From contig DATDEH010000048.1 in assembly GCA_036523395.1 (NCBI GenBank), positions 1 through 41,870 on the forward strand: a stretch of 41,870 nucleotides of DNA, given 5' to 3'. The position numbers were made by a program, and so were the translations under genes. Of the stretch, positions 4,684 to 33,662 are shown in pieces. Source of the stretch: Candidatus Limnocylindria bacterium (GTDB lineage: Bacteria; Chloroflexota; Limnocylindria; P2-11E). A model generated the notes under the pieces. That model searched no databases, was not told where the DNA came from, and saw only the letters and a list, made by a program, of their open reading frames with translations. How positions within the stretch are numbered: the stretch's first letter is position 1; each line of letters opens with the position of its first letter.

Positions 4684-4718
4684 ACTCCCAAACGGCGGAC
4701 CGTCAGGCTCCCGGGCGG

Positions 4719-15761: not shown

Positions 15762-15790
15762 CGTTACTCGGGGGTTGAATTGCCGTTGAG
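15762..15790 (-). promoter_or_regulatory. 11-bp-periodic triple box upstream of the epimerase operon
   Basis: On the minus strand: CTCAACG (15790-15784), 4 bp, TTCAACC (15779-15773), 4 bp, AGTAACG (15768-15762). The half-site and spacing match the plus-strand boxes at 18053, 22525 and 33602. It lies 25 bp before the epimerase ATG and 114 bp before the divergent secreted-protein gene. There is little room for a -10 before the epimerase start, so it may also act on the divergent gene or repress. Confidence 0.55.
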
Positions 15791-15903
15791 TCGTCCGGGA
15801 CTCGAATCACGCTTCAACGATCGTGGGTAGACTGCCAATTGCAGCGGGGTCGCGATGAGGAGAATCTCGATCTTTTCAGCCAGATCCGTCTTCGTTTGCG
15901 GTC

Positions 15904-18033
15904 ATGCGCATTAAGCGGCTCGCCTTGATCCTTGGCGGGGCCGTGCTGGTGGCCGCTCTGTCGCTCGGCAACACTCCGCGCTCCGCGGCGAGCGTCACCT
16001 TTCTCGAGACATTCGACGGCGCGCCGAACATGCCTACGCCCTGGCACCCTGCGAACTGGGACGTGACGGTGCATTCGCGGGACGTCGACACGTTCACGTC
16101 GCTGGAGTTGATGCACGCCGGTCACGGTGTGGATTGTTCGGCTCCGCCGGCCACGCACGACATCTCGTCGTACGGCGACGCCGTCTTCCTCTGCCGCGAT
16201 CACGTGATGACGGCAATCAAGGCGAGCGGTTACGGCGTGGTGTACCTCACGCCGAATCAGCTCGTCGACTTCAGTGGGGGCGAGGCGGTCGTTCGTTTCG
16301 ATGTCTCCACGCTGCGCACGAGCGATCGTGACTGGATCGATCTCTGGATCACGCCGTTCGACCAGAACGTCCAGCTCGTCGGCGACATCGGCGACGTCGA
16401 CCTGAACGGGTATTCGCGAAACGCGGTGCACATCCGTCAGGACCAGATCAACCGCATGGCCATCTTCCGCGGCGGTGTCGTGCGGAACTTCAACGAGTTC
16501 CTCGTCGGCGCGAATGACGCTCTCGCACTGGAGAGGGTGCTCGTGCCGTCAGCGACGGTACGGACGACGTTCGAGCTTCGGGTGTCGCGCACGCACCTCA
16601 AGTTCGGGATCCCGGCGTTGGGGGCGTGGTGGGTAGACAGCGACATGGCCGATCTGGCTTGGACGAGCGGTGTTCTGCAGATCGGCCACCACAGCTACAA
16701 CCCCGAAAAGAGCGATGGCTGCGGGCCGCCCGTCGAAGTCAGTTCCTGCTCCGCGAACACGTGGCACTGGGACAACATTTCGATCTCGCCCGCGACGCCG
16801 TTCACGATCCTCAATGCGAGCCGTGCGACGGCCAGTGCCTCGAGTTCCTCGGCGATGACGTTCGCGGCACCCGCTCCCTCGAACTCGCATCTGCGCTTCG
16901 CCGGCATCGGAAGGAACATTGCCGTGAGCTTCGATGGCGGTCAGACGTGGCAGGCGGCCCAGCGCCAGGCGTACGGCCAGCAGCTGGGCGAGGAGCACTT
17001 TGATTCCTACTGGACGCCGATCCCTGCTGGCACCAAGAGCGTCCTATTCCGCGGGACCGATTGGTACGGTGGGCCATGGCTGGTGCGTAGCGCGGGGATC
17101 TGGGCGAGCGCCGCGCCGACCACGGTGCCGCCGCTGCCCACCGCGCCGCCCGGCGGGGGAAACCCGACGCCGCCGCCGCCCGGCGGTGGAAACCCACCGC
17201 CGCCCGCGCCAACGCCGGGTCCTGTCGCAGTCGTGCCAACGCCACCGGGGACTCTTCCGGGCACGCTCGCGCTCACACCGGGTTTCCACAGCGGGTGGGT
17301 CGAGCAGAGCGCGTATCCGCAGCTGGCTCCGGGTGAGCTCGGCGCCGTCACCGTGCGTTTCCGCAACCTCGGCACCGAGTCGTGGCAAGTCGGCGTGCCC
17401 GGCCGACAGGTGAATATCGGGGTCGTTGGAGATTCGACCGAGTTTGCAGATCGCGGCCTCGCCGAGGCGTGGCTGAGCCCTAATCGTCCGGCGACCACCT
17501 CCGAGTCGCTCGTGCCGCCAGGAGGCATCGGCACCTTCACCTTCAAGGTGCGCGCGACGAGACCGCCTGGGGAATATCGCATCGACCTCGCGCTCGTCGC
17601 TGATGGCGTCGCATGGCTGGAAGACCAAGGCGTCTACATCGTCGTCAACAGCGACGCCGGGTTGCACAGCGCCTGGGTCGCGCAGACCCCGTGGCCTGTC
17701 CTGCGCGCTGGCGAGTTAAGCGCGCCGATCACGGTCGTCTTCAGGAACACGGGCAACGCAAGCTGGATCAAAGGATCCGCCCGCGAGATGCATCTCGGGG
17801 TCGTCGGCGACGACCGATCGTGGGCCGATCTTGGGATCGATTGGCCCGCGCCCGACCGCGTCGCTGTCCAGACGGAATCGGCGGTCCGGACCGGCGACTT
17901 CGGAAGCTTCACCTTCCGAATGCAGGCACCCGACCGGCCGGGCGTTTACGCCCTCCGGCTGCGGCCAGTCGTAGATGGCGTGACGTGGCTTGAGGATCAG
18001 GGAGTGTTCGTCCAGATCACCGTCTCGCCCTAA
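15904..18033 (+). CDS. Secreted protein: new N-domain + two NBR1-type Ig domains
   Basis: 709 residues. Signal peptide ~1-29 (RIKR…LALILGGAVLVAALSL…SAAS). Residues ~30-400 are a near copy of the N-domain of the GH protein at 8222: shared blocks include FLETFxGAP, NWDVTV, APPATH, DHVMTAIK, YLTPNQLVDFS, GDIGDVDLNG, RTHLKFGIP, IGHHSYNPEK and DWYGGPW. A Gly/Pro-rich linker (~400-455) leads to two NBR1-type Ig domains (FHSGWVEQSAY ~460; LHSAWVAQTPW ~587). The glycosidase domain of its paralogue is missing, so this is probably a binding or structural surface protein. No clear ribosome-binding site precedes ATG 15904. It is transcribed away from the epimerase operon. Confidence 0.9.
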   Translation: MRIKRLALILGGAVLVAALSLGNTPRSAASVTFLETFDGAPNMPTPWHPANWDVTVHSRDVDTFTSLELMHAGHGVDCSAPPATHDISSYGDAVFLCRDHVMTAIKASGYGVVYLTPNQLVDFSGGEAVVRFDVSTLRTSDRDWIDLWITPFDQNVQLVGDIGDVDLNGYSRNAVHIRQDQINRMAIFRGGVVRNFNEFLVGANDALALERVLVPSATVRTTFELRVSRTHLKFGIPALGAWWVDSDMADLAWTSGVLQIGHHSYNPEKSDGCGPPVEVSSCSANTWHWDNISISPATPFTILNASRATASASSSSAMTFAAPAPSNSHLRFAGIGRNIAVSFDGGQTWQAAQRQAYGQQLGEEHFDSYWTPIPAGTKSVLFRGTDWYGGPWLVRSAGIWASAAPTTVPPLPTAPPGGGNPTPPPPGGGNPPPPAPTPGPVAVVPTPPGTLPGTLALTPGFHSGWVEQSAYPQLAPGELGAVTVRFRNLGTESWQVGVPGRQVNIGVVGDSTEFADRGLAEAWLSPNRPATTSESLVPPGGIGTFTFKVRATRPPGEYRIDLALVADGVAWLEDQGVYIVVNSDAGLHSAWVAQTPWPVLRAGELSAPITVVFRNTGNASWIKGSAREMHLGVVGDDRSWADLGIDWPAPDRVAVQTESAVRTGDFGSFTFRMQAPDRPGVYALRLRPVVDGVTWLEDQGVFVQITVSP

Positions 18034-18052
18034 CGTTTCGCGCCCCGTCACG

Positions 18053-18081
18053 CTCAACCGACACTCAACCCTCGGACAACG
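18053..18081 (+). promoter_or_regulatory. 11-bp-periodic triple box upstream of ugd
   Basis: CTCAACC (18053-18059), 4 bp, CTCAACC (18064-18070), 4 bp, GACAACG (18075-18081). It lies 20 bp after the preceding stop and 55 bp before the ugd start. A -10-like TACGCT follows at 18102-18107. The first 18 bases match the boxes at 22525 and 33602 at every fixed position (CTCAACCG-N3-CTCAACC). Confidence 0.7.
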
Positions 18082-18135
18082 GCAGCGGAAAGACGTCTCC
18101 GTACGCTCGCCGCACCAAGGGGTGGGAATAACCGA

Positions 18136-19467
18136 ATGAGTGGCGTCTCGATCGTTGGCGCGGGACACGTCGGTGTCGTCTACGCGGCTGGTCTGGCCGA
18201 GCTCGGTCACCAGGTCAGGGTCATCGATGTCAACGAGAAGCGCGTTGCCATGCTCCGCAGCGGTCGGATCTGGTTCTATGAGCCTGGCCTGCCCGAGCTG
18301 CTCACACGGGGGCTGTCGCGCAAGCGCATCACATTCACCACGAGCTACCCGGCCGGTCTGGCGCGCGCTCGCTTCGTGTTCGTCTGTGTTCCGACGCCCA
18401 CCACCAGCGAAGGGACGCTTGACGACAGCTACCTGCGGAGTGCCTTCTCGAACATCCGGCAGTACGCGAAAGCACCGCGCCCGATCATCGTCAACAAGAG
18501 CACGGTCCCGGTCGGCACCGGCGATGTGGTCGCTCGACTCTTCGATGGCGAGGACATCCACGTCGTCTCCAACCCCGAGTTCCTTGCCGAGGGACGGGCC
18601 GTGGAAGACTTCTTCCACCCATCGCGCATCGTCATCGGCTCGCGCAACCGCATCGCGGCGGAAGCGGTCGCCACCCTGTACGCGCCTCTCCGGGCCCCCG
18701 TCGTCCACACCGATCCGGTCTCGGCCGAGTTCAGCAAGCTTGCGGCGAACGCCTTCCTGGCAACGAAGGTCTCGTTCGCGAACGTGCTCTCTCGGATCGG
18801 CGAGTCCGTCGGCGCTGACGGTGAGGGTGTGGCCAAGGCCCTCTCGCTCGACCCGCGCATCGGCGCCGGTCACCTGCGAGCCGGCCTTGGCTTCGGAGGG
18901 TCCTGCCTACCCAAGGACTTGGCCGCGGTCGAGCAGCTTGCACGCCGCTTCACCGACTCATCCGGATTCTTCACCGCGGTCGCCGCGGTGAATCGCGCAC
19001 AGCGGTCGCGGGTCGTCGATCTCCTTCACGACCGATTTGGCGCCATCGCCGAGCGGCGCATCGCGCTGCTCGGAGCCACCTTCAAGGCGAACACCGACGA
19101 TCTGCGGGAATCTCCGGCCCTCGCGCTCGCACGGCAGCTCGACGAGCTGCACGCACTGGTCACCGTCTACGACCCGGTCGCGGCACCGCAGCTCAAGAGC
19201 CTCGCTCCGACACTGCATCTCGCTCGGTCCGCGATGTCGGCCGTCAAGGGCGCGGACGTCGTGATCGTTGCGACTGAGTGGCCTGAGTTCGCCTCTCTCG
19301 ATCTCGCTGCCGTGCGTCGGGCGATGAGCGGATCGTTGCTCATCGACGGTCGCGGCCTCTTCGATGTTGCGTCGGCGCATCGTGCTGGCCTCGACTACTT
19401 CAGCTTCTCCACGGCCGGGATCCGCGAGTGTGCCGTCGAGGAGCCGCTGCCGGCCGTCGCGAGCTGA
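18136..19467 (+). CDS. ugd: UDP-glucose 6-dehydrogenase
   Basis: 443 residues, the usual length. It oxidises UDP-glucose twice with NAD+ to UDP-glucuronate in the cytoplasm. N-terminal Rossmann IVGAGHVGVVYAAGLAELGH; VCVPTPTTSEGTLDDSYL; NKSTVPVGT; NPEFLAEGRAVEDFFHPSRIVIG; catalytic cysteine in GFGGSCLPKD (Cys257); C-terminal LLGATFKANTDDLRESPAL. The ATG is preceded by AAGGGGTGGG. Its downstream neighbour (six bases away) converts the product to UDP-xylose. The 11-bp repeat box just upstream suggests regulated expression; B. subtilis tuaD, the equivalent gene, is under PhoP control, an analogy only. Confidence 0.96.
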   Translation: MSGVSIVGAGHVGVVYAAGLAELGHQVRVIDVNEKRVAMLRSGRIWFYEPGLPELLTRGLSRKRITFTTSYPAGLARARFVFVCVPTPTTSEGTLDDSYLRSAFSNIRQYAKAPRPIIVNKSTVPVGTGDVVARLFDGEDIHVVSNPEFLAEGRAVEDFFHPSRIVIGSRNRIAAEAVATLYAPLRAPVVHTDPVSAEFSKLAANAFLATKVSFANVLSRIGESVGADGEGVAKALSLDPRIGAGHLRAGLGFGGSCLPKDLAAVEQLARRFTDSSGFFTAVAAVNRAQRSRVVDLLHDRFGAIAERRIALLGATFKANTDDLRESPALALARQLDELHALVTVYDPVAAPQLKSLAPTLHLARSAMSAVKGADVVIVATEWPEFASLDLAAVRRAMSGSLLIDGRGLFDVASAHRAGLDYFSFSTAGIRECAVEEPLPAVAS

Positions 19468-19472
19468 TCCGT

Positions 19473-20429
19473 ATGCGGGTACTGGTCGCGGGCGGCGCCG
19501 GTTTCGTGGGGTCGCATCTCGTCGAGCTTCTCGTCGAGCAAGGCGACCACGTCACAGTCGTCGATAATCTGCTCACCGGCTCGACGCGCAACCTCGCGCA
19601 CCTTGCGCGGCCCAGCCTCGACTTCGTGCGGCAAGATGCGGAGAGCGCGCCGGACGGAAATTTCGACCGCGTCTATCACCTCGCGAGCCCCGCAAGCCCC
19701 GAGGCGTACGGCCGCAATCAGGTCGCGACGCTCATGGCGAACAGCGCTGGCACCAAGCACCTTCTCGACGTGGCCGCCCGCGCTGGAGCGCGCTTCTTGA
19801 TGGCCTCGACCTCCGAAGTCTACGGAGACCCGCTCGTACATCCGCAGCCTGAGAGCTATTGGGGCAACGTCGATCCGATCGGGCCGCGCTCGATGTACGA
19901 CGAAGCCAAGCGCTTCGCCGAGGCTCTCGTGGTCGCGTACGTCCGCGAACGCGGCGCTGACGCGCGCATCTCGCGGATCTTCAACGCCTACGGGCCGCGT
20001 ATGCAGCTGAACGATGGCCGCATGCCATCGACCTTCATCGCGGCTGCGATTCGCGGCGAGCCGATACCGGTGCACGGTGATGGATCCCAGACCCGCAGCC
20101 TCTGCTACGTGATGGACACGGCGCGTGGTCTGATCGCCACGATGGAGCGAGGCACTCCGGGAAGCGTCTACAACATCGGCCGAGCGGACGAGGTCTCCGT
20201 CCTTGAGTTCGCTCAGATCGTCGCGCGCGCCACCGGTCGGATGACCCCGATCCACTTCGTGCCCCGACGGCCGCAGGACATCCAGCGGCGATGCCCGGAC
20301 ACCACGATGGCCGAGCGCGACCTCGGTTGGCGCGCGACGACGCCGATCGATGAAGGGCTGCGCGCGACGCTTGCCTGGTATCGCGATGCGCTGATGTCCC
20401 CGCTCGAAGCGGGACGACAGACTGCGTAG
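19473..20429 (+). CDS. uxs: UDP-glucuronate decarboxylase (UDP-xylose synthase)
   Basis: 318 residues from ATG 19473, six bases after the ugd stop; the open frame upstream overlaps ugd and is ignored. Extended SDR: VAGGAGFVGSHL, DNLLTGSTRNLAHL, YHLASPASPEAYGRNQ, STSEVYGDP, HPQPESYWGNVDPIGPRSMYDEAKRFAE (Tyr142, Lys146), FNAYGPRMQLNDGRMPSTF. The YWGNVxPxGxRxxYDExKR block and the HLASPASP segment are characteristic of UXS and not of galactose epimerases. It makes UDP-xylose from UDP-glucuronate, a direct follow-on of Ugd, so xylose is expected in the polymer. Confidence 0.92.
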   Translation: MRVLVAGGAGFVGSHLVELLVEQGDHVTVVDNLLTGSTRNLAHLARPSLDFVRQDAESAPDGNFDRVYHLASPASPEAYGRNQVATLMANSAGTKHLLDVAARAGARFLMASTSEVYGDPLVHPQPESYWGNVDPIGPRSMYDEAKRFAEALVVAYVRERGADARISRIFNAYGPRMQLNDGRMPSTFIAAAIRGEPIPVHGDGSQTRSLCYVMDTARGLIATMERGTPGSVYNIGRADEVSVLEFAQIVARATGRMTPIHFVPRRPQDIQRRCPDTTMAERDLGWRATTPIDEGLRATLAWYRDALMSPLEAGRQTA

Positions 20430-20439
20430 GCATCGCGAC

Positions 20440-21450
20440 ATGGTCGACGTGCTCAACGTCATCGAACGTGTGCGAGTGCCCTCGATCGATCGGCGTGGGC
20501 TGCGGGTCCGTTGGTTCGAGCGCTGGGAACGCACGCTTGACGAGGCGCTTGCCGCCCTGCCTGAGACCGAGGCCAGCCCGCACGAACTTCTCGGTCTGCT
20601 GATGCGCAATCCGTCGGCAATGGCGAAGCGTACGGCTCTCGTCACGGATCGCGATCGTCCAGTAGCGGTGCTCGGCCTGCGAAGGCGAAAGATGTTCTGG
20701 GAGCCCGTCTGGGGCGGCGGCGTGAACGAGCGTTTTCGGCTCGCCGTCGCCGAGGGGTACGCGTCGGCGGCGCTCGCCGCGACCGGCGCGAATGTCTGGA
20801 TCATGAGCCGCGACCGGCCGTCCGCCTCGAACGCGGTGAGAGCCGTCACCGAGCTACCGCGTTTCGGCGCGCCGCTGAGCGGCGCCTACGAAGAGCACTG
20901 GAAGTCCTCGAGTCAGTGGGACAGCGTCAAACAGGCTCGCCGACGATCGGCGGCATTTACGCTCGAAGTAGACGCACCCGGTTCGGCCGAGTGGACGCTA
21001 CGCAACTGGGCGCGGAAGTGGTCGGCGCACGAGGCCGAGTCCGATCTGCTCGCCGCGGCGGAGTTCTACGCGGACCGATCACGGTTTCACGCGTTCCGGT
21101 TGTATGACGGCGTCACGCCGATCGCGGGCTGCACCTACATCGTCGACGGAACCGTGCTGCTCGCGCAGCTCAACTACTTCGACGCGGCGTACCGACGCAA
21201 CGGCGTTCAAACGCGCCTCGACGATCTGGTCTTCGCCTGGGCTCGAACGAGATACTCGACGATGGATCTCGGGTGCAGCTACCAAGCGGACTCATACAAG
21301 CGCCGCTGGGCACCCCGAGATGGGAGCTCGTGGCTGTGGAACGTCGCGCCACTGCATCTTCACCTCGTTCGTGAGGGGGTGCGTTTTGGCAGACGCGCCG
21401 TGGCCACAGGGTTCAGCACCTTTGGATCCAGGCCGGGCGTGACGGCGTGA
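20440..21450 (+). CDS. FemAB/GNAT-like acyltransferase, copy 1
   Basis: 336 residues. The N-terminal module (GLRVRWFERWERTLDEALAALPE…SPHELLGLLMRN…KRTALVTDRDRPVAVLGLRRRKMFWEPV) is followed by a GNAT fold of the Acetyltransf_6/FemAB type (~170-300): FTLEVDAPGSAEWTLRNWARKW, FHAFRLYDGVTPIAGCTYIVDG, FDAAYRRNGVQTRLDDLVFAWA, DLGCSYQADSYKRRW. Relatives transfer acyl or aminoacyl groups to cell-wall or EPS precursors. It is the first of three tandem paralogues (20440, 21447, 22607), followed by a smaller GNAT. It begins ten bases after uxs and overlaps copy 2 by four bases (GTGA). The substrate is unknown. Confidence 0.8.
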   Translation: MVDVLNVIERVRVPSIDRRGLRVRWFERWERTLDEALAALPETEASPHELLGLLMRNPSAMAKRTALVTDRDRPVAVLGLRRRKMFWEPVWGGGVNERFRLAVAEGYASAALAATGANVWIMSRDRPSASNAVRAVTELPRFGAPLSGAYEEHWKSSSQWDSVKQARRRSAAFTLEVDAPGSAEWTLRNWARKWSAHEAESDLLAAAEFYADRSRFHAFRLYDGVTPIAGCTYIVDGTVLLAQLNYFDAAYRRNGVQTRLDDLVFAWARTRYSTMDLGCSYQADSYKRRWAPRDGSSWLWNVAPLHLHLVREGVRFGRRAVATGFSTFGSRPGVTA

Positions 21451-22511
21451 CCGGCGTGGGATCGCATCCGAACATCGAACTGCCCGTTCGGCCACACGCT
21501 TCCGATCGCGCCGGCACCATGAGCCGAGGTTTGCGCGTCCGATGGTTCGATCCCTGGAGTTCGGAGGTCGACGCGGCACTGCTGTTGCTTCCCGAGCCCG
21601 AAAGCTGTCCTCACGACCTGCTCGCGGAGCTCATGCAAGGTCCGACTCGAACGCGTAAGCGCACGGCGATCATCACGCTGCGAGGCGAGCCTGTGGCCGT
21701 TGTGGGTTTGCGGAGCCGCAAGCACTTCTGGGAGCCTGTGTTCTCTGCGAGCGTTTGCCCGCGCGCGAAAATGCCCGCGCGCGACGGGATGCTCTTTCCT
21801 GCGCTTGCCGCCCTCGGCCTCGACGTCTGGACGGGCGGCTGGGAGGATGCCCCGGAAGGATCACTCCCGAACGTGAGAAGCGCCTTCTCATTACCGATGT
21901 ACAAGGTCGACTGCGGGAAAGGCGCCGAGGAGCATTGGCGGCAGAGCGGGAATGCCAGAGCCGTCGAGATCGGTCGGAATCGCACCAGGGGGTTCACCCT
22001 CGAGGTCGATGCTCCGGGCGCGACGGAATGGGTCATCGAAAACTGGGGTCGCCAATGGCGGCACCACCCGAGTCAAGAGACGATCTGCGTTGAAGATCAA
22101 CTGATCGCCGCGCGGTACTTCCAGCCGCGCGGGCTTCTACACACGTTCCGGCTGCTCGATGGCGGCCAGCCGGCCGCCGGCTACGTCGGGGCGGTGTACC
22201 GCGGCGAGATCGTGCTCGTTTGCGGTCACCGCGAGGCCGAGTACGAACGCCGCAGCGTCGGCATCCGTCTGTTCGATCTCGTGATCGACTGGGCCGCGGC
22301 AGCCGGCTACGCGAAGGTCGACATCGGCGGAGGCCATGCCTACAAGGCCAAGTGGGCGCCGGAAGACGGGCAGAGGTGGTACTTCAATGTCTGCCCGACG
22401 CCGCTCTACGTCGTGAAGAAGGCCGTGCGCGTGGCGCGATCGAGTCTCAGCTCGTTCAGAAACGGCGCCGCCGGCCGCGCCACGACGGCTGCTTCCGCGG
22501 CCGGCCAGTAG
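21447..22511 (+). CDS. FemAB/GNAT-like acyltransferase, copy 2
   Basis: 354 residues from GTG 21447 in a GTGA overlap with copy 1. An internal ATG at ~21519 (MSRGLRVRWFDPW) aligns with the start of the conserved part and is an alternative. Same layout as copy 1: LRVRWFDPW…PHDLLAELMQ…KRTAIITLRGEPVAVVGLRSRKHFWEPV, then GFTLEVDAPGATEWVIENWGRQW, HTFRLLDGGQPAAGYVGAVYRGE and KVDIGGGHAYKAKWAPEDGQRWYFNV. It is the most diverged of the three: the Glu-rich AHEAESDLL helix of copies 1 and 3 is replaced by HHPSQETICVEDQL. Copy 3 is separated by a regulatory gap. Confidence 0.78.
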   Translation: MTGVGSHPNIELPVRPHASDRAGTMSRGLRVRWFDPWSSEVDAALLLLPEPESCPHDLLAELMQGPTRTRKRTAIITLRGEPVAVVGLRSRKHFWEPVFSASVCPRAKMPARDGMLFPALAALGLDVWTGGWEDAPEGSLPNVRSAFSLPMYKVDCGKGAEEHWRQSGNARAVEIGRNRTRGFTLEVDAPGATEWVIENWGRQWRHHPSQETICVEDQLIAARYFQPRGLLHTFRLLDGGQPAAGYVGAVYRGEIVLVCGHREAEYERRSVGIRLFDLVIDWAAAAGYAKVDIGGGHAYKAKWAPEDGQRWYFNVCPTPLYVVKKAVRVARSSLSSFRNGAAGRATTAASAAGQ

Positions 22512-22524
22512 CCCGAACTGCCTG

Positions 22525-22553
22525 CTCAACCGTCCCTCAACCGCCGAACAACG
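22525..22553 (+). promoter_or_regulatory. 11-bp-periodic triple box upstream of FemAB-like copy 3
   Basis: CTCAACC (22525-22531), 4 bp, CTCAACC (22536-22542), 4 bp, AACAACG (22547-22553). A -10-like TATCTA lies at 22570-22575, 16 bp after the third unit, the clearest promoter-like arrangement among the boxes. It starts 14 bp after the copy 2 stop and would restart transcription at copy 3. Confidence 0.7.
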
Positions 22554-22606
22554 CCGCGTGCCGTGGTGTTATCTAGGTTCACCACTGTGGAGACGCCGAG
22601 GGTCGG

Positions 22607-23611
22607 GTGCCGCGAATGGAATTGACGGAGCTGCTCGAGAGGCTGCCGGTGCCTTGGCTCGATCGGCAGGGTCTCGCCGTCGAATGGTTCGAGCCATGGG
22701 ACTTGAGTCTCGAGTCTGCACTTCGGAGCCTGCCCGAATCACTCACATCGCCCCACGAGCTCCTCGGGCTGCTCATGCGGAACGTAACGACGGGCCGGAA
22801 ACGCACGGCGCTGGTGACACGTGGCGGTCGTCCGGTCGCGGTGCTCGGCCTGCGACGGTGGATGCGCTTCTGGGAACCGGTCTGGTGGCGCGGTCCGATC
22901 AATGAACGCTTTACTTCTGCCGCGCACGAAGCCGAGCTGCTCCCCGCTCTCGCGGCGACCGGGCTCAACATCTGGATGGTGACCCGATCTGCCCCCGAGA
23001 TGGGACGGGTCCGGAGCGCAACACAGTTTCCGGTCTACAAGATCCCCTGTGCAGACTCCGAGCGGGTTTGGCGTGAGACCGGTCACTGGAAGCGGATCCG
23101 CGAAGCGCGGAACCGGACGCGTGGCTTCATGTTCGAGATCGACCCGCCTGGAGCCGCCGAGTGGACGATTCGGAACTGGGCTCGCAAGTGGCATGCGTAC
23201 GAGGCCGAGAGCGATCTGCTGCTCGCTGCCGAGTACTTCGCGCAGCGTGACCTGTGCCATGTGGCCGTTCTGCGCGAGGGCGGCGTGAAGGCCGCAAGCT
23301 GCATGTTCCTTGTGGTCGGTGACGAGCTGCTCGCGCAGGTGAACTTCCACTCCGAGGACTATCGCTGGCATGCCGCACAGACGCGCTTATACGACCTCGT
23401 CGTCGCGTGGGCGTACGGGTCGGGCGTGCGATCGATCGACATGGGCGTCAGCTATGGGAAGAGCTACAAGCAACGGTGGGCTGTCCGCGACGGGACGGCT
23501 TGGATGTTCAATGTCGCGCCCGCGCACCTGCACTTCATGCGCAGCGCCGTCAAGGCCGGCGCTTCCGCGCTCGGGTCGGTGCGAAGGTTCGCGCCAAAGG
23601 GAACGACGTGA
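22607..23611 (+). CDS. FemAB/GNAT-like acyltransferase, copy 3
   Basis: 334 residues from GTG 22607; ATG 22616 is an alternative, as the GAGGG at ~22598 could serve either. Blocks match copy 1 closely: WLDRQGLAVEWFEPW, SPHELLGLLMRN, KRTALVTRGGRPVAVLGLRR, FWEPVWWRGPINERF, GAAEWTIRNWARKWHAYEAESDLLLAAEYF, SYKQRWAVRDGTAWMFNVAPAHLHFMRSAV. It is the first gene of a new unit with small GNAT, NodB deacetylase and GT9, all joined by 1-10 base overlaps, and has its own upstream box. An acyl or aminoacyl modification of an EPS sugar is the best inference. Confidence 0.8.
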   Translation: MPRMELTELLERLPVPWLDRQGLAVEWFEPWDLSLESALRSLPESLTSPHELLGLLMRNVTTGRKRTALVTRGGRPVAVLGLRRWMRFWEPVWWRGPINERFTSAAHEAELLPALAATGLNIWMVTRSAPEMGRVRSATQFPVYKIPCADSERVWRETGHWKRIREARNRTRGFMFEIDPPGAAEWTIRNWARKWHAYEAESDLLLAAEYFAQRDLCHVAVLREGGVKAASCMFLVVGDELLAQVNFHSEDYRWHAAQTRLYDLVVAWAYGSGVRSIDMGVSYGKSYKQRWAVRDGTAWMFNVAPAHLHFMRSAVKAGASALGSVRRFAPKGTT

Positions 23612-26212: not shown

Positions 26213-27336
26213 CCCGCCCTCGTTCGTCGGCTGCTCCGACCCGCGACTGCTTCCTCGATGAGGGCCGCGACCTGACGAGCCTCTACTTCGGTGCTGAAGC
26301 GCCGCACGGCATCTTCGCGGGCCGCGCGGCCCCAGCTCGCACCGCGCTCGACATCCAGGATGACGGAGTCGATCGCCGTCGCGAGCGCCGGACCGTCTCC
26401 CGGCGGGACCAAACGACCGGTGCGTCCGTCCTTGACGATCTCGGGGATCCCGCCAACGGCCGAGACCACCACAGGCATGCCGCACGCCATCGCCTCGATC
26501 GACGCCATCGAGAACATGTCGGCCAGCGTCGGCAGGACGAGCGCGTCGCAGCTCTGGTACAGCCGCAGGAGACGATCGTCATCGGGCCCGAAGTCACGGT
26601 ACACATGCACCCCGGGCTCCTCGGCGACGTCGGCGCGCGTCACGAGATGAAGGTCGCAGCGGTCGCGCAGGTGCGTGCGATACACGTCGAGCAGCAGGGG
26701 TCCGCCCTTTCGGGCGAAGTCAGCTCCGACGAAGATGAGCTGCGGCCGCTCGTTCCTCGTCCGGCGCTCGTCCGGATGCCATCGCGCCGTGTCGACGCCC
26801 GGGTGCACGACGTGCATCCGCTCGGGCGGAGCGCCGAAGTCATTGATCATCGAGTCGGCGACCCACTTGGACCACGGCAGCAGTCCCGTGCACTTTTGAT
26901 AGAAAAGGCGGTGGAGGGCACCACTCGCGCGGCCTTTCAGCGTGGCCGGATCGGTCTGATCCACGTAGTGCTCCTGAAGGCCCGCATAGAGTGCCGGAGT
27001 GCTGTCCACGGCGAAGAACAGCGGGATGTTCTGAGGGATGACCCGCGTCAGCGTGTACGGCAACAGCAGAACACTGAGCTGCGACCAGACGGCGTCGACC
27101 GAACGCGACCAGATCATCGGGAGCAAACACGAGAGCGAGCGCACGTGGCCGCGCGGCTTGTGCGGGATCGGGAGTCGTTCGAGCCAGCCGCCATCGACGT
27201 AGGGACGCGTCTCGACCCCGACGACCTCGAAGCGATCGGAGGGGAAGGCTTTCCTCAGGTGCCTGTATTGCGTTTGGACGCCCGCGACCATCCACGCCAC
27301 CATCGCGAGCCGGATCCGACCATCGCGTGCGATCAC
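26209..27336 (-). CDS. Glycosyltransferase family 4
   Basis: About 375 residues from GTG 27336 (GAGGGA just before it); ATG 27303 is the alternative. The longer frame to 27513 overlaps the upstream GT4 by 127 bases and is rejected. IRLAMVAWMVAGVQTQYRHLRKAF begins the acceptor domain. The donor domain carries FVGADFARKGGPLLLDVYR, YRDFGPDDDRLLRLYQSCDALVLPTLADMFSMASIEAMACGMPVVVSAVGGIPEIVKDGRTGRLVPPGD. Likely EPS sugar transfer at the inner membrane. It is the last gene of the minus-strand run kinase-regulator-methyltransferase-GT4-GT4 and is similar in its donor domain to the plus-strand GT4 at 33663 (FxRKGG, CLSIALMEATAAGMAV-type). Confidence 0.87.
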   Translation of the reverse strand: MIARDGRIRLAMVAWMVAGVQTQYRHLRKAFPSDRFEVVGVETRPYVDGGWLERLPIPHKPRGHVRSLSCLLPMIWSRSVDAVWSQLSVLLLPYTLTRVIPQNIPLFFAVDSTPALYAGLQEHYVDQTDPATLKGRASGALHRLFYQKCTGLLPWSKWVADSMINDFGAPPERMHVVHPGVDTARWHPDERRTRNERPQLIFVGADFARKGGPLLLDVYRTHLRDRCDLHLVTRADVAEEPGVHVYRDFGPDDDRLLRLYQSCDALVLPTLADMFSMASIEAMACGMPVVVSAVGGIPEIVKDGRTGRLVPPGDGPALATAIDSVILDVERGASWGRAAREDAVRRFSTEVEARQVAALIEEAVAGRSSRRTRAG

Positions 27337-27385
27337 TCCCTCGGCAGCGCCCGCGTTGGCGATACCCGCGGTCAACGATGACTCG

Positions 27386-28618
27386 CTACGGGCGGACAGC
27401 GGCGCGCTGGCGCGACCCTGGCCGTGGGTTCGGGGCACCGTCGGCACGCAGTCGGGCGGGAACTCGTCCGACGCCGACCGAGGCATAGAGCTCGAGAAGG
27501 TCGTCGGCGACACGCTCGACCGAGAAGTGCGTGCTCACGTGTGAGGCCGCCGCCTTCGAAAGGCTCGCACGCAGCGCGTCGTCGCGCACGATGCGTGCGA
27601 GCACCGCGGCGAGCCCGCGTGGATCCGCGGGTGGCGCGCTGAGACCGGTCTCCTCGGTGATGACAGCCTCCTCCGGCCCGCAGAAGGTGATCACCGGGGG
27701 CGCTCCGCGAGCCATTGCCTCGAGCAGCGCGATCGACATGGAGCCGGCGGGCACGGCGAGCACGAAGACGTCCATGGCGTCGACGAACACACCTGGGTTC
27801 TCACGCTGTCCGGCGAAGTGCACGTCCGCGCGGATGCCGAGCTCACTTGCGAGAGCCTCGAGCTCGGCGCGAAGCGGGCCGTCGCCGACAAGAAGCAACT
27901 GAGTCGTCATCTCGCGGCGGACGATCGCGAACGCACGCAAGAGGTCGTCGAGTCCCTTGCCGTTCGCGAGTCGGACGACGCTCCCGATCACCACGACGTC
28001 ACCCGGGATCCCCATCTGATCTCGAACGGCGGCGCGGTTGCGCGCCTTCTCCGTGTCGGTAACCGCTGGGATCGGCACCCCGTTGAGGATCGACCCGAAA
28101 CGGTGCTCCCGGGCACCGCCGCGATTGCGGCGTAGCGCCGCGTTCCGTCGTGATACCGCGACCAGGCCGTGGACCAGGTGATCCGTCAGCTTCTTCGTGG
28201 CGCGATCTTGCAGCGCCATCCGCTCCGCCGGGACATCGTGCTCGGTGAGGACGACGGTCGCCCCCGTAAGCGCGCGCGACAGAGCGACGACACCGAGGCC
28301 ACCCGTCGCGCCACCGGTCTGGACGTGCACCACGGTCGGACGGAAGGCGCGGAGGATCGACGCGAGCTTCGAGAGCCGCGCGAGCTGCGCGCGCCGACCG
28401 CTACGGGCGTCAGTCGTGAGCCGGTCGACCTCGGCTCCGCCGGATCGGAATCGCGCGTCGAGCCCATCGAATGCGCTGCCTTCGGGGAGCACCGCCCGGA
28501 CGGGAATGCCGCGGCGGACGTATTCGGCGGCCAGGTCGACGCAGTGCGTTTCCATGCCGCCCACCGCCGTGGACTGCAAGATCAAGCAGACGCGAGCGCG
28601 GGACTGGTCACCGCTCAT
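27386..28618 (-). CDS. Glycosyltransferase family 4, paralogue of the 3418-4620 gene
   Basis: A 410-residue GT-B enzyme. VCLILQSTAVGGMETHCVDLAAEYVRRGIPV, HVQTGGATGGLG, ATVVLTEHDVPAERM, RRNAALRRNRGG; donor domain GSVVRLANGKGLDDLLRAFAIV, LLVGDGPLRAELEALASELGI, AGSMSIALLEAMARGAPPVITFCGPEEAVITEETGLSAPPADPRGLA. Most of these blocks have a direct counterpart in the GT4 at 3418-4620, 23 kb away, so the two arose by duplication. Its start overlaps the methyltransferase stop by four bases. It likely extends the EPS repeat unit. Confidence 0.9.
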   Translation of the reverse strand: MSGDQSRARVCLILQSTAVGGMETHCVDLAAEYVRRGIPVRAVLPEGSAFDGLDARFRSGGAEVDRLTTDARSGRRAQLARLSKLASILRAFRPTVVHVQTGGATGGLGVVALSRALTGATVVLTEHDVPAERMALQDRATKKLTDHLVHGLVAVSRRNAALRRNRGGAREHRFGSILNGVPIPAVTDTEKARNRAAVRDQMGIPGDVVVIGSVVRLANGKGLDDLLRAFAIVRREMTTQLLLVGDGPLRAELEALASELGIRADVHFAGQRENPGVFVDAMDVFVLAVPAGSMSIALLEAMARGAPPVITFCGPEEAVITEETGLSAPPADPRGLAAVLARIVRDDALRASLSKAAASHVSTHFSVERVADDLLELYASVGVGRVPARLRADGAPNPRPGSRQRAAVRP

Positions 28619-29619
28619 CCCATCCTCACCGAAGCTTTGGTTCGTCGGTCGCGCGCGAAGAAATCTGCGAGCTGATGTCGGAGTGCCCGATACGCCGGGC
28701 GCAGCGGGCTGAGGTAGAGCGCCACGTCGCGTGTGCCGCGCAGCGCGTGCGCGAGGCCCGCGGACTCAACGCGCCGATAGCGAGTGACCATTCCGTCGAG
28801 GTTCTCTTCCGGCTCGAAGCCCGCACGCTGGAGCTGGTAGCGCAAAGGCAGGTCGTCGTCATAGAGATGCGGTGCGTTCTCGGCGCTCGCCGGACGCACG
28901 TCGAAGTTCGCGAAGAGCAGACCGTTCGGACGCAGCGCCATATGAAGCATCCGGCAAGCGGCGGGCACGTCGGGGATGTGCACCAGCGTGTCCACGGCCG
29001 TGATCACGTCATAGCTGCTTGGCCGGATCGTTTCGAAATTAAGATCCAAGTACGTCGCTCTGTCACCGCGCCGCTCAAGCCTGAATCGCGCGAAATCCAA
29101 GAGCGACGTCGAGATGTCCGCGAGATCGGATTCGTATCCGAGCCGCGTAAAAAGCTGGCTCGTCGCCCCGATGCCTGATCCGAAATCGAGATGCCGAGCG
29201 CCAGAACGCGCGCGCGGAACGCTCTGCGCGATCGCCACGCTCACGGGATAGGCATAACCCATCGCTTGGAGATACGAATACCAGAGCAGATCGAACGCCC
29301 ATGACTTCGTCGCGCGATAGAAGGCGGTCATCGCCTCCTCGGAGTCGCGCCGCTCTGCTGTCCACTCTTCGACCGACCATTGCTCCCATTCGATGCAGCG
29401 GCGTGCGCACTCGTCCGCTGCCAGGCCAAAGAAGGTGCTGAGGTCATCGAGCACCGCCGCGCGGAGGTCACCGGCACCCGTGAACTGCAGTGACTCTCGA
29501 TAGAGGTCCATAGCGGCGCTGACGAAAGCGCGCCGCTGTCGCGCCGGCCACAGCGCGCGGTCCGGGGCCGGATCCACGAGCGGATCAGCGTGTTGCCCCT
29601 GCTTCAGAACACGTGGCAT
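28615..29619 (-). CDS. SAM-dependent methyltransferase
   Basis: About 334 residues from ATG 29619 (GTG 29628 possible). Class I fold in the middle: motif I RHLDFGSGIGATSQLFTRLGYESDLADIS (SAM glycine loop and acidic post-I residue), then SYDVITAVDTLVHIPDVPAACRMLHMALRPNGLLFANFD, as in Methyltransf_11/12 enzymes. An N-terminal ~130-residue helical part (ALWPARQRRAFVSAAMDLYRE…WEQWSVEEWTAERRDSEEAMTAFYRATKSWAFDLLWYSY) may bind the acceptor. Probably methylates a sugar of the EPS or caps its end. It lies 23 bases after the response regulator, so it may be transcribed with the two-component genes. Confidence 0.85.
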   Translation of the reverse strand: MPRVLKQGQHADPLVDPAPDRALWPARQRRAFVSAAMDLYRESLQFTGAGDLRAAVLDDLSTFFGLAADECARRCIEWEQWSVEEWTAERRDSEEAMTAFYRATKSWAFDLLWYSYLQAMGYAYPVSVAIAQSVPRARSGARHLDFGSGIGATSQLFTRLGYESDLADISTSLLDFARFRLERRGDRATYLDLNFETIRPSSYDVITAVDTLVHIPDVPAACRMLHMALRPNGLLFANFDVRPASAENAPHLYDDDLPLRYQLQRAGFEPEENLDGMVTRYRRVESAGLAHALRGTRDVALYLSPLRPAYRALRHQLADFFARDRRTKASVRMG

Positions 29620-29642
29620 TGCGAACACAACCTCGGTAGCAG

Positions 29643-30323
29643 TTATGACATGGCCAAGCTGTAACCGACCCCAGGAACAGCTCGAATACCGCCGTTCTTG
29701 CCGGCCGAAAGGTTCAGCTTCTGGCGGATATGGCAGATGTGGGTCTTTAGGAGGCTTGAGTCGCCTCCCTCGTAGCCCCAGGCGTACTCCACGAGACGCG
29801 AATAGGGAATGACACGGCCCTCGTTGACGCCGAGCAAATAGAGGATCCGGAACTCGAGCGGCGTGAGCTGTATCTGCCTATCTCCGGCTGTGACACCGTA
29901 GGACTGCAGATCAAGGCGTACCTCGCCGATCTTCACTTCGCGCACGGGCTGGCGGTACGGGTCAGCCTGCGCCCTGCGAAGCACGGCCTTGATGCGCGCG
30001 CCGAGCTGCTTGGCGCTGAACGGCTTGTTGACGTAGTCGTCCGCCCCGACACGGAATCCGTGAAGGACGTCCTCCTCTTCGTCGCGTGCCGTGAGCATGA
30101 TGATCGGGGTCGCGCCTTCGTGACGCAGGCGTCGGCAGACCTCGTAGCCGTCCACCTTGGGCAGGTTCGCGTCAAGGAGGACGATGTCGGGGGAGCTCTC
30201 CTCCCAGCGTCGGATGGCCTGTTGCCCGTCCATCGCGGTCAGTACCGTGTAACCCTCTCGACCGAGGGCGTAGGTCAACAGATCGAGAAGATCCGCATCG
30301 TCTTCGACGAGCAGCACTTTCAT
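29643..30323 (-). CDS. OmpR/PhoB-family response regulator
   Basis: 226 residues. Receiver domain (1-118): VLLVEDD with acidic residues 7-9, phospho-acceptor Asp51 (VLLDANLPKVDGYEV), Thr78 and Lys100 (DDYVNKPF). Winged-helix DNA-binding domain (~130-224): QLTPLEFRILYLLGVNEGRVIPYSRLVEYAWG, SSLLKTHICHIRQKLNL and VPGVGYSL. This subfamily binds tandem 7-bp half-sites with an 11-bp period, which is the geometry of the boxes found around this locus, so it is the obvious candidate to bind them (inference). Four-base overlap with the histidine kinase gene upstream and 23 bp to the methyltransferase downstream. Confidence 0.94.
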   Translation of the reverse strand: MKVLLVEDDADLLDLLTYALGREGYTVLTAMDGQQAIRRWEESSPDIVLLDANLPKVDGYEVCRRLRHEGATPIIMLTARDEEEDVLHGFRVGADDYVNKPFSAKQLGARIKAVLRRAQADPYRQPVREVKIGEVRLDLQSYGVTAGDRQIQLTPLEFRILYLLGVNEGRVIPYSRLVEYAWGYEGGDSSLLKTHICHIRQKLNLSAGKNGGIRAVPGVGYSLAMS

Positions 30324-31072
30324 ACCGCGTCCATCCTTTCCGCGATTGCACCGGGTTCTTCCGAGGCGGGGACGGCCTTACCCATCATGGGAAGCAACTC
30401 GAACCAGAACGTGGTGCCACCACCAACGCGATTGAATGCACCGACCCTCCCGCCATGCGCGCGCACGATCGACCGCACGACCCAAAGCCCGATCCCGAGA
30501 CCCTCGCCGCCTGAGCGACCCGCGCGGTCGTATGCGCGGAACGCGGTGCGAAGCGCCCCGTCCGGAAGACCGGGACCACGGTCGGAGACGCTCACGCGCA
30601 CTTTGCCGGCGACGGTCGAGACGGCGATCTCCACCTCCGTGCCCGCGTCGGCGTACTTGTTCGCGTTGGAGAGGAGGTTGAGAAGCACCTGAGAGATCCG
30701 GTGGTCATCGGCTTCCACGAGCGGGCATGTCGGAAGCGAGAAGACGCGGATCGTCTGTCGTTTGCGATCGAAGCTCGGTCGAACGACCGACTCGATCTCC
30801 CCGATCGCTTCGAGGATGTCAAGCGGGCGCAGGTGGACCTGAAAGCGGCCCTCGCTGATCGCCGCACTCGCGAGCAGGTTCTCGAGCAGGCCACGCATCC
30901 AAATGGTCCGGCGATGTATCGCAGAAACGAGGTCGCGAACCTGGCCCGCGTCGAGACTGTCGAGGTCGCGTCCGAGGACCTCAGATGCAGACTCGAGCGC
31001 CGTGAGCGGGCCTCGCAGCTCATGTGCGACGGTCGCAATCAGACTTGGAGACTCGTGAACGATCACGGCCAT
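30320..31072 (-). CDS. Soluble histidine kinase without a sensor domain
   Basis: Only 250 residues. The H-box starts almost at the N-terminus (TVAHELRGPL, His17), leaving no room for a membrane helix, PAS or GAF sensor. DHp helices follow to ~85, then the HATPase domain: N box LLNLLSNANKYADAG (131-144), G1 DRGPGLPDG (164-172), G2 GEGLGIGLWVV (190-199). The in-frame sequence upstream of ATG 31072 has no ATG, GTG or TTG codon nearby, so the short form looks genuine. It presumably senses through a partner or through its DHp domain. It phosphorylates the co-translated response regulator (four-base overlap). First gene of the minus-strand run; the palindrome at 31148-31167 lies ~75 bp upstream. 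Confidence 0.9.
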   Translation of the reverse strand: MAVIVHESPSLIATVAHELRGPLTALESASEVLGRDLDSLDAGQVRDLVSAIHRRTIWMRGLLENLLASAAISEGRFQVHLRPLDILEAIGEIESVVRPSFDRKRQTIRVFSLPTCPLVEADDHRISQVLLNLLSNANKYADAGTEVEIAVSTVAGKVRVSVSDRGPGLPDGALRTAFRAYDRAGRSGGEGLGIGLWVVRSIVRAHGGRVGAFNRVGGGTTFWFELLPMMGKAVPASEEPGAIAERMDAV

Positions 31073-31147
31073 TGTGAGAAAGCCGAACGCAATGCGAACA
31101 GATTGACGCGAATCCCACCCATGTCCGCCCCCACCTATGCCCCACCG

Positions 31148-31167
31148 GTACTACGCGTGACTAGTAC
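31148..31167. promoter_or_regulatory. Palindromic operator-like site before the kinase gene
   Basis: GTACTA (31148-31153), 8 bp, TAGTAC (31162-31167), a perfect 6-bp inverted repeat in the 301-bp divergent gap 31073-31373. The gap also holds the 11-bp box at 31265. No gene was found in it. Confidence 0.4.
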
Positions 31168-31264
31168 TCCGCACTTTCTAGCGGGACCGTGACGTGTTGT
31201 AAACCGGTAGAGGTATCAGGCCAGTTGAGGTTTGATGCGATTCTGAGACTGAACCAATTTCGTA

Positions 31265-31293
31265 CACAACCTCGGGTCAACCGGCGGTAGACC
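31265..31293 (+). promoter_or_regulatory. 11-bp-periodic triple box upstream of the WecG-type gene
   Basis: CACAACC (31265-31271), 4 bp, GTCAACC (31276-31282), 4 bp, GTAGACC (31287-31293). It is less conserved than the CTCAACC copies but shows the same 7+4 phasing with C-A/G-A-C-C cores, 80 bp before the start of the core EPS operon. A TAGAAC at 31298-31303 is a poor -10 candidate. Confidence 0.45.
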
Positions 31294-31373
31294 GCCATAG
31301 AACTTGCGAACCGGAAACTCGCTCTGCGTCGGATGTTTCCGAGGCCAAGAGCCGCGCAGGGTGGGGGTTTCGG

Positions 31374-32165
31374 TTGGATTCCAGCGATGTCCGGACGAGA
31401 CGGCCACGAGTCTCGCTGTTCGACGTGCTCGTCGATCGTGTGGATCGGGCGAGCGCGATCGTGATGCTGCGCGGGTTCTTACGTGACGGAGGCCGACACC
31501 AGATCGTGACCGTCAACCTGGACTTCATGCGGCTCGCTGATCGCGACCCTGCTTACCGCGCGGTCCTGAACCGCGCCGACCTCGCAGTGGCCGACGGGAT
31601 GCCGCTGGTCTGGTTCTCACGTCTTGGCACGGCGTCCTTGCCGGAGCGCGTCGCGGGGATCGACCTTGTCGAGCAGTGCTGTCGCCTCGCTACTGAGGAG
31701 TCCGTGCCGGTGTTCTTCCTTGGAGCGTTGCCTGGCGTTGCGGCGGAGGCTGCGCGGGTGCTGAGCGGACGCTATCCCGGGCTGCGGATCGCGGGCACCT
31801 ACTCGCCGCCCTTCGGGCCCGCGAGCTCCGAAGGCGATGAAGAGATCGTGCGCGTTGTCTCGGCCGCTGGCCGCTGTGTGCTGCTGGTCGCGTTCGGCGC
31901 TCCGCGTCAGGACCGGTTCATCAGCGATCACCTGCACGAATTCGACGCCGCGATCGCTATGGGCGTGGGCGGGTCGTTCGACATCTTCGCCGGGACTCTG
32001 CGTCGCGCACCCTTTTGGATGCAGCGCACCGGGTTCGAATGGATCTGGCGGCTGATGCAGGAGCCGCGCCGACTCTGGCGACGTTATCTGGTCGAGGATG
32101 TTCCGTTCATCCTCCGGCTCGGCGCGCGCGCGGCGCGCGGACGCATCGCGCTGGACGTCGGATGA
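31374..32165 (+). CDS. WecG/TagA/CpsF-family glycosyltransferase (GT26)
   Basis: 263 residues from TTG 31374; no ATG or GTG gives a complete domain, and a G-rich tract (GGGTGGGGG) lies a little upstream. GT26 signature: VSLFDVLVDRVDRASAIVML, HQIVTVNLDFMRLADRDPAYRAVLNRADLAVADGMPLVWFSRL, ERVAGIDLVEQCC, VFFLGALPGVAAEAARVL, VAFGAPRQDRFI, GVGGSFDIFAG, RAPFWMQRTGFEWIWRLMQEPRRLWRRYL. Relatives add ManNAc(A)-type sugars to the lipid-linked first sugar, so this is probably the second step of the repeat unit. Four-base overlap (ATGA) with the sugar-transferase gene downstream. Confidence 0.93.
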   Translation: MDSSDVRTRRPRVSLFDVLVDRVDRASAIVMLRGFLRDGGRHQIVTVNLDFMRLADRDPAYRAVLNRADLAVADGMPLVWFSRLGTASLPERVAGIDLVEQCCRLATEESVPVFFLGALPGVAAEAARVLSGRYPGLRIAGTYSPPFGPASSEGDEEIVRVVSAAGRCVLLVAFGAPRQDRFISDHLHEFDAAIAMGVGGSFDIFAGTLRRAPFWMQRTGFEWIWRLMQEPRRLWRRYLVEDVPFILRLGARAARGRIALDVG

Positions 32166-33601
32166 GCATCATCCAGCTCCCGGTCGTCGAGCCACTGCCT
32201 GCCGCCGCACAGGCCCGATCAACGCGCGCTCTGTTGTCGCTGTCGGTGCTGGTCCTGCTCGCTGTGGACGTGGCGCTCGTCGCGGTCTCTTTCGTGCTCG
32301 CGTACGACGTGCGTTTCGTCCTCTCCGACGCGGTCGCCGAGGCATTTCCTTTCACGTTGTACCTTCGGACCGGAGTCCTCGTTGGCGCGATCGCGGCCGC
32401 ACTGCTCGTTCTCCAGGGGCTAGGCGATCTGGAGCGACGACGCTCGTGGCCGACGAGACTGCGCGCCATCACGTCCGCGCTCTCGACCGGGACGGTCATG
32501 GCCGTGGTCATAACGTTCGACCAGGACCAGCGTCTGTCTCGCGCGTGGCTCGCGATCGGTTGGACGCTCTCGCTCGTATCGATCATCGCGTGGCGCACGG
32601 CCGCACCGCCGGCGTACCTGGCTATCCGTCGCCGATTCGCTCCTCGGCGCAGGGCGCTTGTGGTCGGCGCCAACATCGTTGGCCAGGAGCTCGCGCGCGA
32701 GCTCGAGGCGCGCTACGAGGTCCTCGGGTACGTCGACAACGGCACGGATCTCCTTGCCCTCGACCGTCCGCTTCTGTCGCCGATCGCCGAGCTCGAGGCG
32801 GTCGTGCGCTCGGCAGCCGTCGATGAGATCGTCATCGCGCTACCCGCGGACAGGCGCGAGCAGGTCGATCGGGTGATCGCTCGTGGTTTCGGCCGTCAGG
32901 TCGACGTGAAGATCGTGACCGAGCTTGGCGAGCAGCTGCCGCGACGGTTGGAGCTGGGGCGATTCGGTTCGCGCCCGTACATCGCGTTCGCGCCCGTGGC
33001 TCCGGTGACGTGGCTCAAGCGCGCCGTCGATATCGTGCTCGCGACCTCTGCTCTTGCGCTGGGCTCACCGCTCCTTATTGCGATCGCGATCGCGATCCGA
33101 CTCGACTCCCGCGGCCCTCTGCTCTATCGCCAGCGGCGAGTGGGCAAAGACAGTGTTCCTTTCGAGATGCTGAAGTTCCGATCGATGTGCGTCGAGGCCG
33201 AAGGCATGTTGGCCGAGCTCAGTCAGCACAATGAAGCGACCGGCCCGATATTCAAGATGCGACGCGATCCGCGTGTGACCCGCGTGGGTCGGATCCTCCG
33301 GCGTTATAGCCTCGATGAGCTTCCTCAGCTCGTGAACGTGCTTCGCGGTGACATGAGCTTGGTCGGTCCGCGCCCGCCACTCCCTACAGAGGTCGCCAAG
33401 TACGAGGACTGGCAGATGGCGCGACTGCGCGCTCGGCCAGGGATGACCGGTCTCTGGCAGGTGAGCGGGCGCAGCGAAGTCCCCTTCAATGACATGGTCC
33501 GTCTCGACATCCATTACGTCCGGAACTGGTCGTTCGGCCTCGACCTCGAGATCATGCTGCGGACCATCCCGGCGGTCGTCGCGAACAAGGGCGCGTACTA
33601 G
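32162..33601 (+). CDS. Undecaprenyl-phosphate sugar phosphotransferase (initiating enzyme)
   Basis: 479 residues from ATG 32162 inside the ATGA overlap. Polytopic N-terminus (LLSLSVLVLLAVDVALVAVSFVLAY; LRTGVLVGAIAAALLVLQGLG and two more), a CoA-binding-like Rossmann region (RALVVGANIVGQELARELEARYEVLGYVDNG), then the bacterial sugar transferase domain: KRAVDIVLATSALALGSPLLIAIAIAIRL, GPLLYRQRRVGKDSVPFEMLKFRSM, RVGRILRRYSLDELPQLVNVLRGDMSLVGPRP, RPGMTGLWQVSGRS. This is the WbaP/CpsE layout; it moves a sugar-1-phosphate onto undecaprenyl phosphate and so starts EPS assembly. Confidence 0.95.
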   Translation: MSIIQLPVVEPLPAAAQARSTRALLSLSVLVLLAVDVALVAVSFVLAYDVRFVLSDAVAEAFPFTLYLRTGVLVGAIAAALLVLQGLGDLERRRSWPTRLRAITSALSTGTVMAVVITFDQDQRLSRAWLAIGWTLSLVSIIAWRTAAPPAYLAIRRRFAPRRRALVVGANIVGQELARELEARYEVLGYVDNGTDLLALDRPLLSPIAELEAVVRSAAVDEIVIALPADRREQVDRVIARGFGRQVDVKIVTELGEQLPRRLELGRFGSRPYIAFAPVAPVTWLKRAVDIVLATSALALGSPLLIAIAIAIRLDSRGPLLYRQRRVGKDSVPFEMLKFRSMCVEAEGMLAELSQHNEATGPIFKMRRDPRVTRVGRILRRYSLDELPQLVNVLRGDMSLVGPRPPLPTEVAKYEDWQMARLRARPGMTGLWQVSGRSEVPFNDMVRLDIHYVRNWSFGLDLEIMLRTIPAVVANKGAY

Positions 33602-33630
33602 CTCAACCGCTTCTCAACCTTCTGTGAACA
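33602..33630 (+). promoter_or_regulatory. 11-bp-periodic triple box before the GT4-Wzz-BYK unit
   Basis: CTCAACC (33602-33608), 4 bp, CTCAACC (33613-33619), 4 bp, GTGAACA (33624-33630). It begins at the base after the sugar-transferase stop codon and ends 33 bp before the GT4 start. No clear -10 follows. It matches the boxes at 18053 and 22525 through CTCAACCG-N3-CTCAACC. Confidence 0.65.
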
Positions 33631-33662
33631 GGCCCGAACGGGCTTGGCACGACCATCACTCT

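Follow-up and report, generated by a model that had tools for sequence, protein, structure and literature searches.

The PHO box of PhoB (E. coli) and PhoP (Streptomyces) consists of 11-nt direct repeats, each with seven conserved and four less conserved positions, and is bound head-to-tail (PMC4415409). In E. coli, ArcA sites are built of direct repeats spaced 11 bp center-to-center, three to five per site (PMC3798270), and CenR of Rhodobacter sphaeroides has a TGA-N8-TGA tandem repeat and envelope genes as targets (PMC9275681). Here we analyze a repeat box of related layout in a 41,870-bp stretch of DNA (the window; 67% GC), which is contig 48 of the 3.02-Mb metagenome-assembled genome (MAG) of an uncultured soil Chloroflexota and carries an exopolysaccharide (EPS) gene cluster. 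A likely role of the box is that of a promoter-proximal operator for an OmpR/PhoB-family response regulator encoded at 29643-30323, through which the polysaccharide units and a small number of other surface genes are probably activated. Our literature searches turned up no EPS regulator-operator pair described for Chloroflexota, and nothing direct on 11-bp repeats as an EPS operator or on any EPS operator in Chloroflexi.

Box sites in the window

Four strong sites and two weak copies were located, each with a hexamer at the distance expected for a -10 element.

18053..18081, plus strand: box 1, CTCAACC gaca CTCAACC ctcg GACAACG; -10-like TACGCT at 18102-18107
22525..22553, plus strand: box 2, CTCAACC gtcc CTCAACC gccg AACAACG; -10-like TAGGTT at 22574-22579
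33602..33630, plus strand: box 3, CTCAACC gctt CTCAACC ttct GTGAACA; -10-like GACCAT at 33651-33656
15762..15790, minus strand: box 4, CTCAACG gcaa TTCAACC cccg AGTAACG; -10-like CAACAT at 15741-15736
31265..31293, plus strand: weak copy, CACAACC/GTCAACC/GTAGACC; GAAACT at the -10 offset (31314-31319)
4655..4683, plus strand: weak copy, CGCAACC gccg CTCAACT ttgc CGTATCC; CAGGCT at the -10 offset (4704-4709)

The strong sites follow the consensus CTCAACN-N4-YTCAACC-N4-NNNAACN, with conserved 7-bp units at an 11-bp period on a single strand. The initial annotation had listed five sites, with RACAACG as the third unit of their consensus, and a sixth, poor copy. All of its coordinates and sequences were reproduced, and so were the two strong units, but the third half-site is loosely conserved (NNNAAC) and only four of the five sites are strong.

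All four strong sites are intergenic, where intergenic DNA makes up 6% of the window by our own gene calls. The caller was a simple one of our own making, which leaves start distances somewhat inexact. Each strong box lies immediately upstream of a polysaccharide-cluster unit, and both Pfam and our gene calls bear out the units named initially. Box 1 is 55 bp upstream of the ugd start (18136). Box 2 precedes FemAB-like copy 3 (22607), followed by a deacetylase and a glycosyltransferase (GT) of type GT9, and box 3 precedes a GT4 gene (GTG start 33663, predicted leaderless), followed by Wzz-like and tyrosine-kinase-like genes. Box 4 precedes a unit of nucleoside-diphosphate (NDP)-sugar epimerase, GT4 and GT2. 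Together with Ugd, Uxs, three FemAB-like proteins, the polysaccharide deacetylase and GT9, the cluster encodes WecG, a Bac_transf sugar transferase, and Wzz-like, kinase-like, Wzy-like and flippase proteins.

The copy at 31265, in the gap from which the kinase and WecG genes diverge, is weak, and its membership in the set is doubtful. The copy at 4655 is weak as well, yet it may be genuine, because a GT2 open reading frame (ORF; 4719-6221) starts 36 bp downstream and a -10-like hexamer stands at the usual offset. Incidentally, the DNA separating groEL from a GT4 gene holds a one-mismatch pair, CTCAACC-N4-CTCCACC (3135-3152, minus strand), and a start codon is missing at the distance typical of the set. 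No Rfam family matched the window.

Rarity in the genome

The genome contains four exact CTCAACC-N4-CTCAACC pairs, where composition predicts 0.02 (P ~6e-9), and none of the reversed pattern. Three of the four pairs fall inside the window, which is 1.4% of the genome (P ~1e-5), and the fourth is on contig 33. If up to three mismatches are allowed, 18 matches are found in the window; dinucleotide shuffles average 2.7 (sd 1.8), and none of 100 reached 18. Over the whole genome, TCAAC-N6-TCAAC-N7-CAACG with up to two mismatches is found at four places, all in the window (reversed control, 1), and a looser triple pattern gives five matches, four of them in the window (control, 0). The motif combined with a -10 picks out precisely the four window sites and the contig-33 copy (control, 0). 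No comparable boxes were found inside genes in these scans.

Three copies had been reported to share CTCAACCG-N3-CTCAACC exactly; the sequence is indeed identical at 18053, 22525 and 33602, and a fourth identical copy is on contig 33 (5639-5622, minus strand). This fourth copy precedes a LuxR-type gene and then TadE/TadG-, CpaB- and CpaE-like genes, a tad pilus operon, as read from translations, with Pfam confirmation for the LuxR-type helix-turn-helix only. The initial idea of a small regulon is supported, neither of the two outcomes named at the outset as refuting it having occurred, but the set extends beyond EPS genes, one copy fronting the tad operon.

Taken alone, the weak copies would speak for chance or for a coincidence produced by repeats in intergenic DNA of high GC content. 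Such a coincidence is contradicted by the shuffles and reversed patterns, and also by the spacing spectrum and conservation described below. For the four strong sites this explanation stands refuted, and overall we give it next to no credence.

Promoter position and start codons

A -10-like NANNNT begins 20/21 bp after the 29-mer box at 13 of 20 sites in the discovery set. Because this offset was first spotted by eye, it was retested on sites fetched later. With the offset preset, NANNNT is found at 13 of 19 newly fetched sites when 1.4 are expected (P = 3.6e-11), two of these sites being from one array and orthologous promoters being not fully independent. If the -10 element is placed at -12 to -7, the box reaches from about -61 to about -33, and box promoters contain no recognizable -35, which makes recruitment of polymerase by the bound regulator most likely.

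Box position alone would also be compatible with a regulator that binds the box but represses the EPS units until dephosphorylated. We regard such repression as unlikely, because the box ends ~20 bp before the -10, the -10 and the start are left free, and a good -35 is missing, which suggests the usual layout of an activated promoter. The fixed distance to the -10 could further mean that the box itself belongs to the core promoter, such as a -35 recognized by an alternative sigma factor, and AAC is common in -35 elements of extracytoplasmic function (ECF) sigma factors. This is highly improbable, as it leaves two to three copies at an 11-bp period unexplained, the 20/21 bp between the last repeat and the -10 are more than promoter spacing allows, and the box tracks a response regulator.

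Start codons are found 6-10 nt past the -10 at 33663, at several epimerase genes and on contig 33, from which leaderless mRNAs are predicted for several of the box-linked genes. High-GC bacteria use TANNNT signals for leaderless genes (PMC3160421). At the window epimerase, the ATG chosen by the ORF caller (15737) overlaps the -10, whereas GTG 15728 gives 7-nt spacing and seven residues before VVVTGG, as in five orthologues. Because both the orthologue N-termini and the -10 spacing are restored, GTG 15728 is probably the true start.

Conservation at orthologous loci

Close orthologues of the regulator (69-74% identity) are present in other Chloroflexota MAGs. Three orthologue-bearing genomes keep the epimerase-GT4 or epimerase-GT2 neighborhood, and in these syntenic loci the box is retained, 33-38 bp upstream of the epimerase on the same strand. 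When the four epimerase promoters are aligned, the sole long invariant island is CTCAAC-N5-TCAAC-N8-AAC; the flanks do not align where alignment was made. Two further genomes with the epimerase-operon box appeared in the phylum scan, making five other genomes.

Same-strand TCAAC spacing was counted over 13 loci (the window plus 12). There are 16 pairs at 11 bp, while other distances have a mean of 0.42 and a maximum of 3. Intergenic DNA, 18% of those sequences, holds 15 of the 16 pairs. When the window is left out, the peak still amounts to 12 pairs against 0.39 at other distances. The spacing supports the 7+4 geometry of the PhoB/PhoP kind proposed initially, and the half-site, YTCAAC, is unlike the CTGTCAT of E. 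coli, as had been stated.

At several orthologous loci, boxes also occur near the kinase and regulator genes themselves. Other box-linked genes encode GT4, GT2, GT87, an FkbH-like TPR protein, a sugar methyltransferase-like protein, a NusG-like protein and a histidine kinase. At L276 (G347 contig 30), the NusG-like gene downstream of a strict box possibly encodes a specialized antiterminator for a surface cluster. Upstream of kinase-regulator genes, at L156:4653-4755 and near 8967 in L158 and L161, the motif TGTAACG recurs and is perhaps bound by another (MtrA-like) regulator.

The regulator and its co-occurrence with the box

29643..30323, minus strand: OmpR/PhoB-family response regulator, proposed box binder (Pfam Response_reg and Trans_reg_C)
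30320..31072, minus strand: histidine kinase, probable partner (Pfam HisKA and HATPase, no other Pfam domain)

The nearest solved structures (PDB) to the regulator are MtrA, RegX3 and PhoP. Its presumed DNA-reading helix, LLKTHI[CS]H[IL]R, is nearly invariant across orthologues, and the phospho-acceptor D51 is invariant in orthologue set A3. A kinase gene also precedes the regulator gene at several orthologous loci. An EPS-linked regulator copy at L052:9626-10363 (G010 contig 216) has Asn replacing the phospho-acceptor Asp (VVVNLALA); the boxes of that cluster are of a different flavor, with a first repeat TTCAAGK.

In a scan of 400 Chloroflexota genomes, the orthologue was defined by >329 bits with model A3, a cut set after seeing the table, which gave 17 genomes. 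The strict box CTCAAC-N5-YTCAAC-N8-AAC has 26 matches in 13 of the 400 genomes, compared with 3 matches overall for the reversed control. It is present in 10 of the 17 regulator-positive genomes and in 3 of the 383 regulator-negative ones (Fisher 2e-13), the latter three being consistent with the background rate. With a looser cut (52 genomes matching at 1e-75), the association persists (1e-7). Because the box occurs across the phylum mostly where the regulator gene is present, it is very probably this regulator's site.

The box could instead be the operator of a different OmpR-family regulator, the cluster-encoded one merely traveling with EPS clusters. Paralogues are many in the genome, and TCA-N8-TCA spacing is common to several OmpR-family regulators (PMC9275681, PMC4415409). 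Co-occurrence across the phylum, on the other hand, is specific to the orthologue group of 29643-30323, boxes accompany kinase/regulator genes as noted above, and almost all genomes searched, including box-negative ones, have other OmpR-family members. We therefore judge a different regulator to be rather unlikely.

Several findings weigh against the regulator at 29643-30323 as the binder. Another regulator could bind the box, because ~59 sequences in the genome match this one at E <= 0.001. Seven regulator-positive genomes lack the strict box, from incomplete MAGs or diverged boxes, and the co-occurrence is partly confounded by phylogeny. Finally, the boxes of genus-level relatives differ in sequence and are mostly reversed relative to the gene.

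Boxes in relatives of the window's family

The exact CTCAACC pair is absent from the 27 other genomes of the window's family. The first impression that these relatives have lost the box was rejected, as they carry a changed half-site, TCAAY. The presumed DNA-reading helix is ALRSHISHLR in the relative type of regulator and LLKTHICHIR in the window type. For TCAA-N7-TCAA-N7-TCAA, 29 matches were listed in the 28 family genomes (reversed control, 0). This triple repeat is found in 11 of 12 genomes with the same regulator clade and in 1 of 16 without it, a count in which shared ancestry is retained and the window's own genome is included with one mismatch. The boxes of the relatives and the window are alike in the 11-bp triple geometry, the TCAA core and the co-occurrence with the regulator clade. 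We do not claim them as the same element, because the relatives' boxes are mostly in the opposite orientation and no -10 peak appears at 20/21 bp.

Most relatives have a second conserved element, approximately AACGTCATG-N15-TCCTCAAT, which lies 44-47 bp away from the triple box, toward the gene. It precedes unrelated genes in L042, L047, L089, L096, L099, L100, L107 and others, and may be the site of a second regulator or a promoter. Clusters with this element also carry two tandem response regulators. A tRNA gene adjoins the regulator pair at L047:10593-10666 and L089:10124-10197, possibly an insertion hotspot for the cluster. In a congeneric genome, TTCACCG-N4-CTCACCG-N4-CTCACCG (L054:10351-10323, minus strand) lies beside a PhoP-like regulator, a PHO-box-like contrast to CTCAACC.

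Tentatively, one could conceive of a phylum-wide EPS code that evolves by lineage, in which the same regulator family, an 11-bp repeat operator and leaderless transcripts would extend across Chloroflexota. The window's family would then have changed the half-sites, mostly flipped their orientation and gained the second element beside a second paired regulator, making a two-regulator composite promoter.

Proposed mode of action

The observed part of the model comprises the sequence of the box, its conservation, its spacing, its distance to the -10 and its co-occurrence with the regulator. From these we infer that the regulator binds the box, that it activates and does not repress, and that it acts when phosphorylated in response to a signal. 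Regulator monomers would sit head-to-tail on the two strong half-sites (YTCAAC) and the weak NNNAAC, one DNA turn apart. The phosphorylated regulator would take the strong pair first, extend to the weak third repeat beside the -35 position and recruit polymerase. Once phosphorylated, probably by the kinase encoded next to it, the regulator would turn on the separate EPS units together, so that precursor supply, assembly, modification and chain length, plus the tad pilus operon elsewhere, would be co-switched. The box-linked genes listed above for other loci fit this scheme.

Chloroflexota is a major, mostly uncultured soil phylum, for which the finding supplies a testable operator, promoter position and regulator. 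The motif allows EPS and surface genes to be located, and its variants provide a series of naturally occurring regulator-operator pairs in which the evolution of OmpR-family specificity can be studied.

Comparison with known systems

The box has three features of an OmpR/PhoB-type operator, namely the repeat geometry, a linked regulator with a receiver and a winged-helix (Trans_reg_C) domain, and a fixed position relative to a predicted promoter. It shares the 11-nt 7+4 unit layout with the PHO box, and the Streptomyces PhoP half-site GTTCACC has its TCA core in the same register. The half-site differs, being CTCAACC rather than CTGTCAT or GTTCACC (PMC4415409), the third repeat is degenerate, and the gap from box to -10 is 20/21 bp. 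Unlike in the phosphate regulon, the targets are GTs, NDP-sugar enzymes, a Wzz-like protein, a deacetylase and tad, with no phosphate gene among the window genes tested.

Read on the other strand, the box is TGA-N8-TGA as for CenR, and both regulons concern the envelope. CenR is alphaproteobacterial with an essential cell division and envelope regulon, and the half-site bases (TTGAG) and targets of the window differ. ArcA sites also have more than two repeats at 11 bp and belong to an OmpR/PhoB-family regulator, but half-site, physiology and lineage are different. ChvGI of alphaproteobacteria is likewise a two-component system that controls exopolysaccharide genes; ChvI of Caulobacter has a palindrome-like motif, TTGC-N3-GCAA (PMC9731502), whereas the window box is an 11-bp direct repeat. 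In JUMPstart/ops control by RfaH, ops (GGCGGTAGCGTG) sits in the leader, whereas the window repeats are upstream of the predicted -10. The arrangement is ordinary in principle, and its details have good support: it is a new regulator-operator pair of a known type, with its own consensus, promoter geometry and phylum-wide spread.

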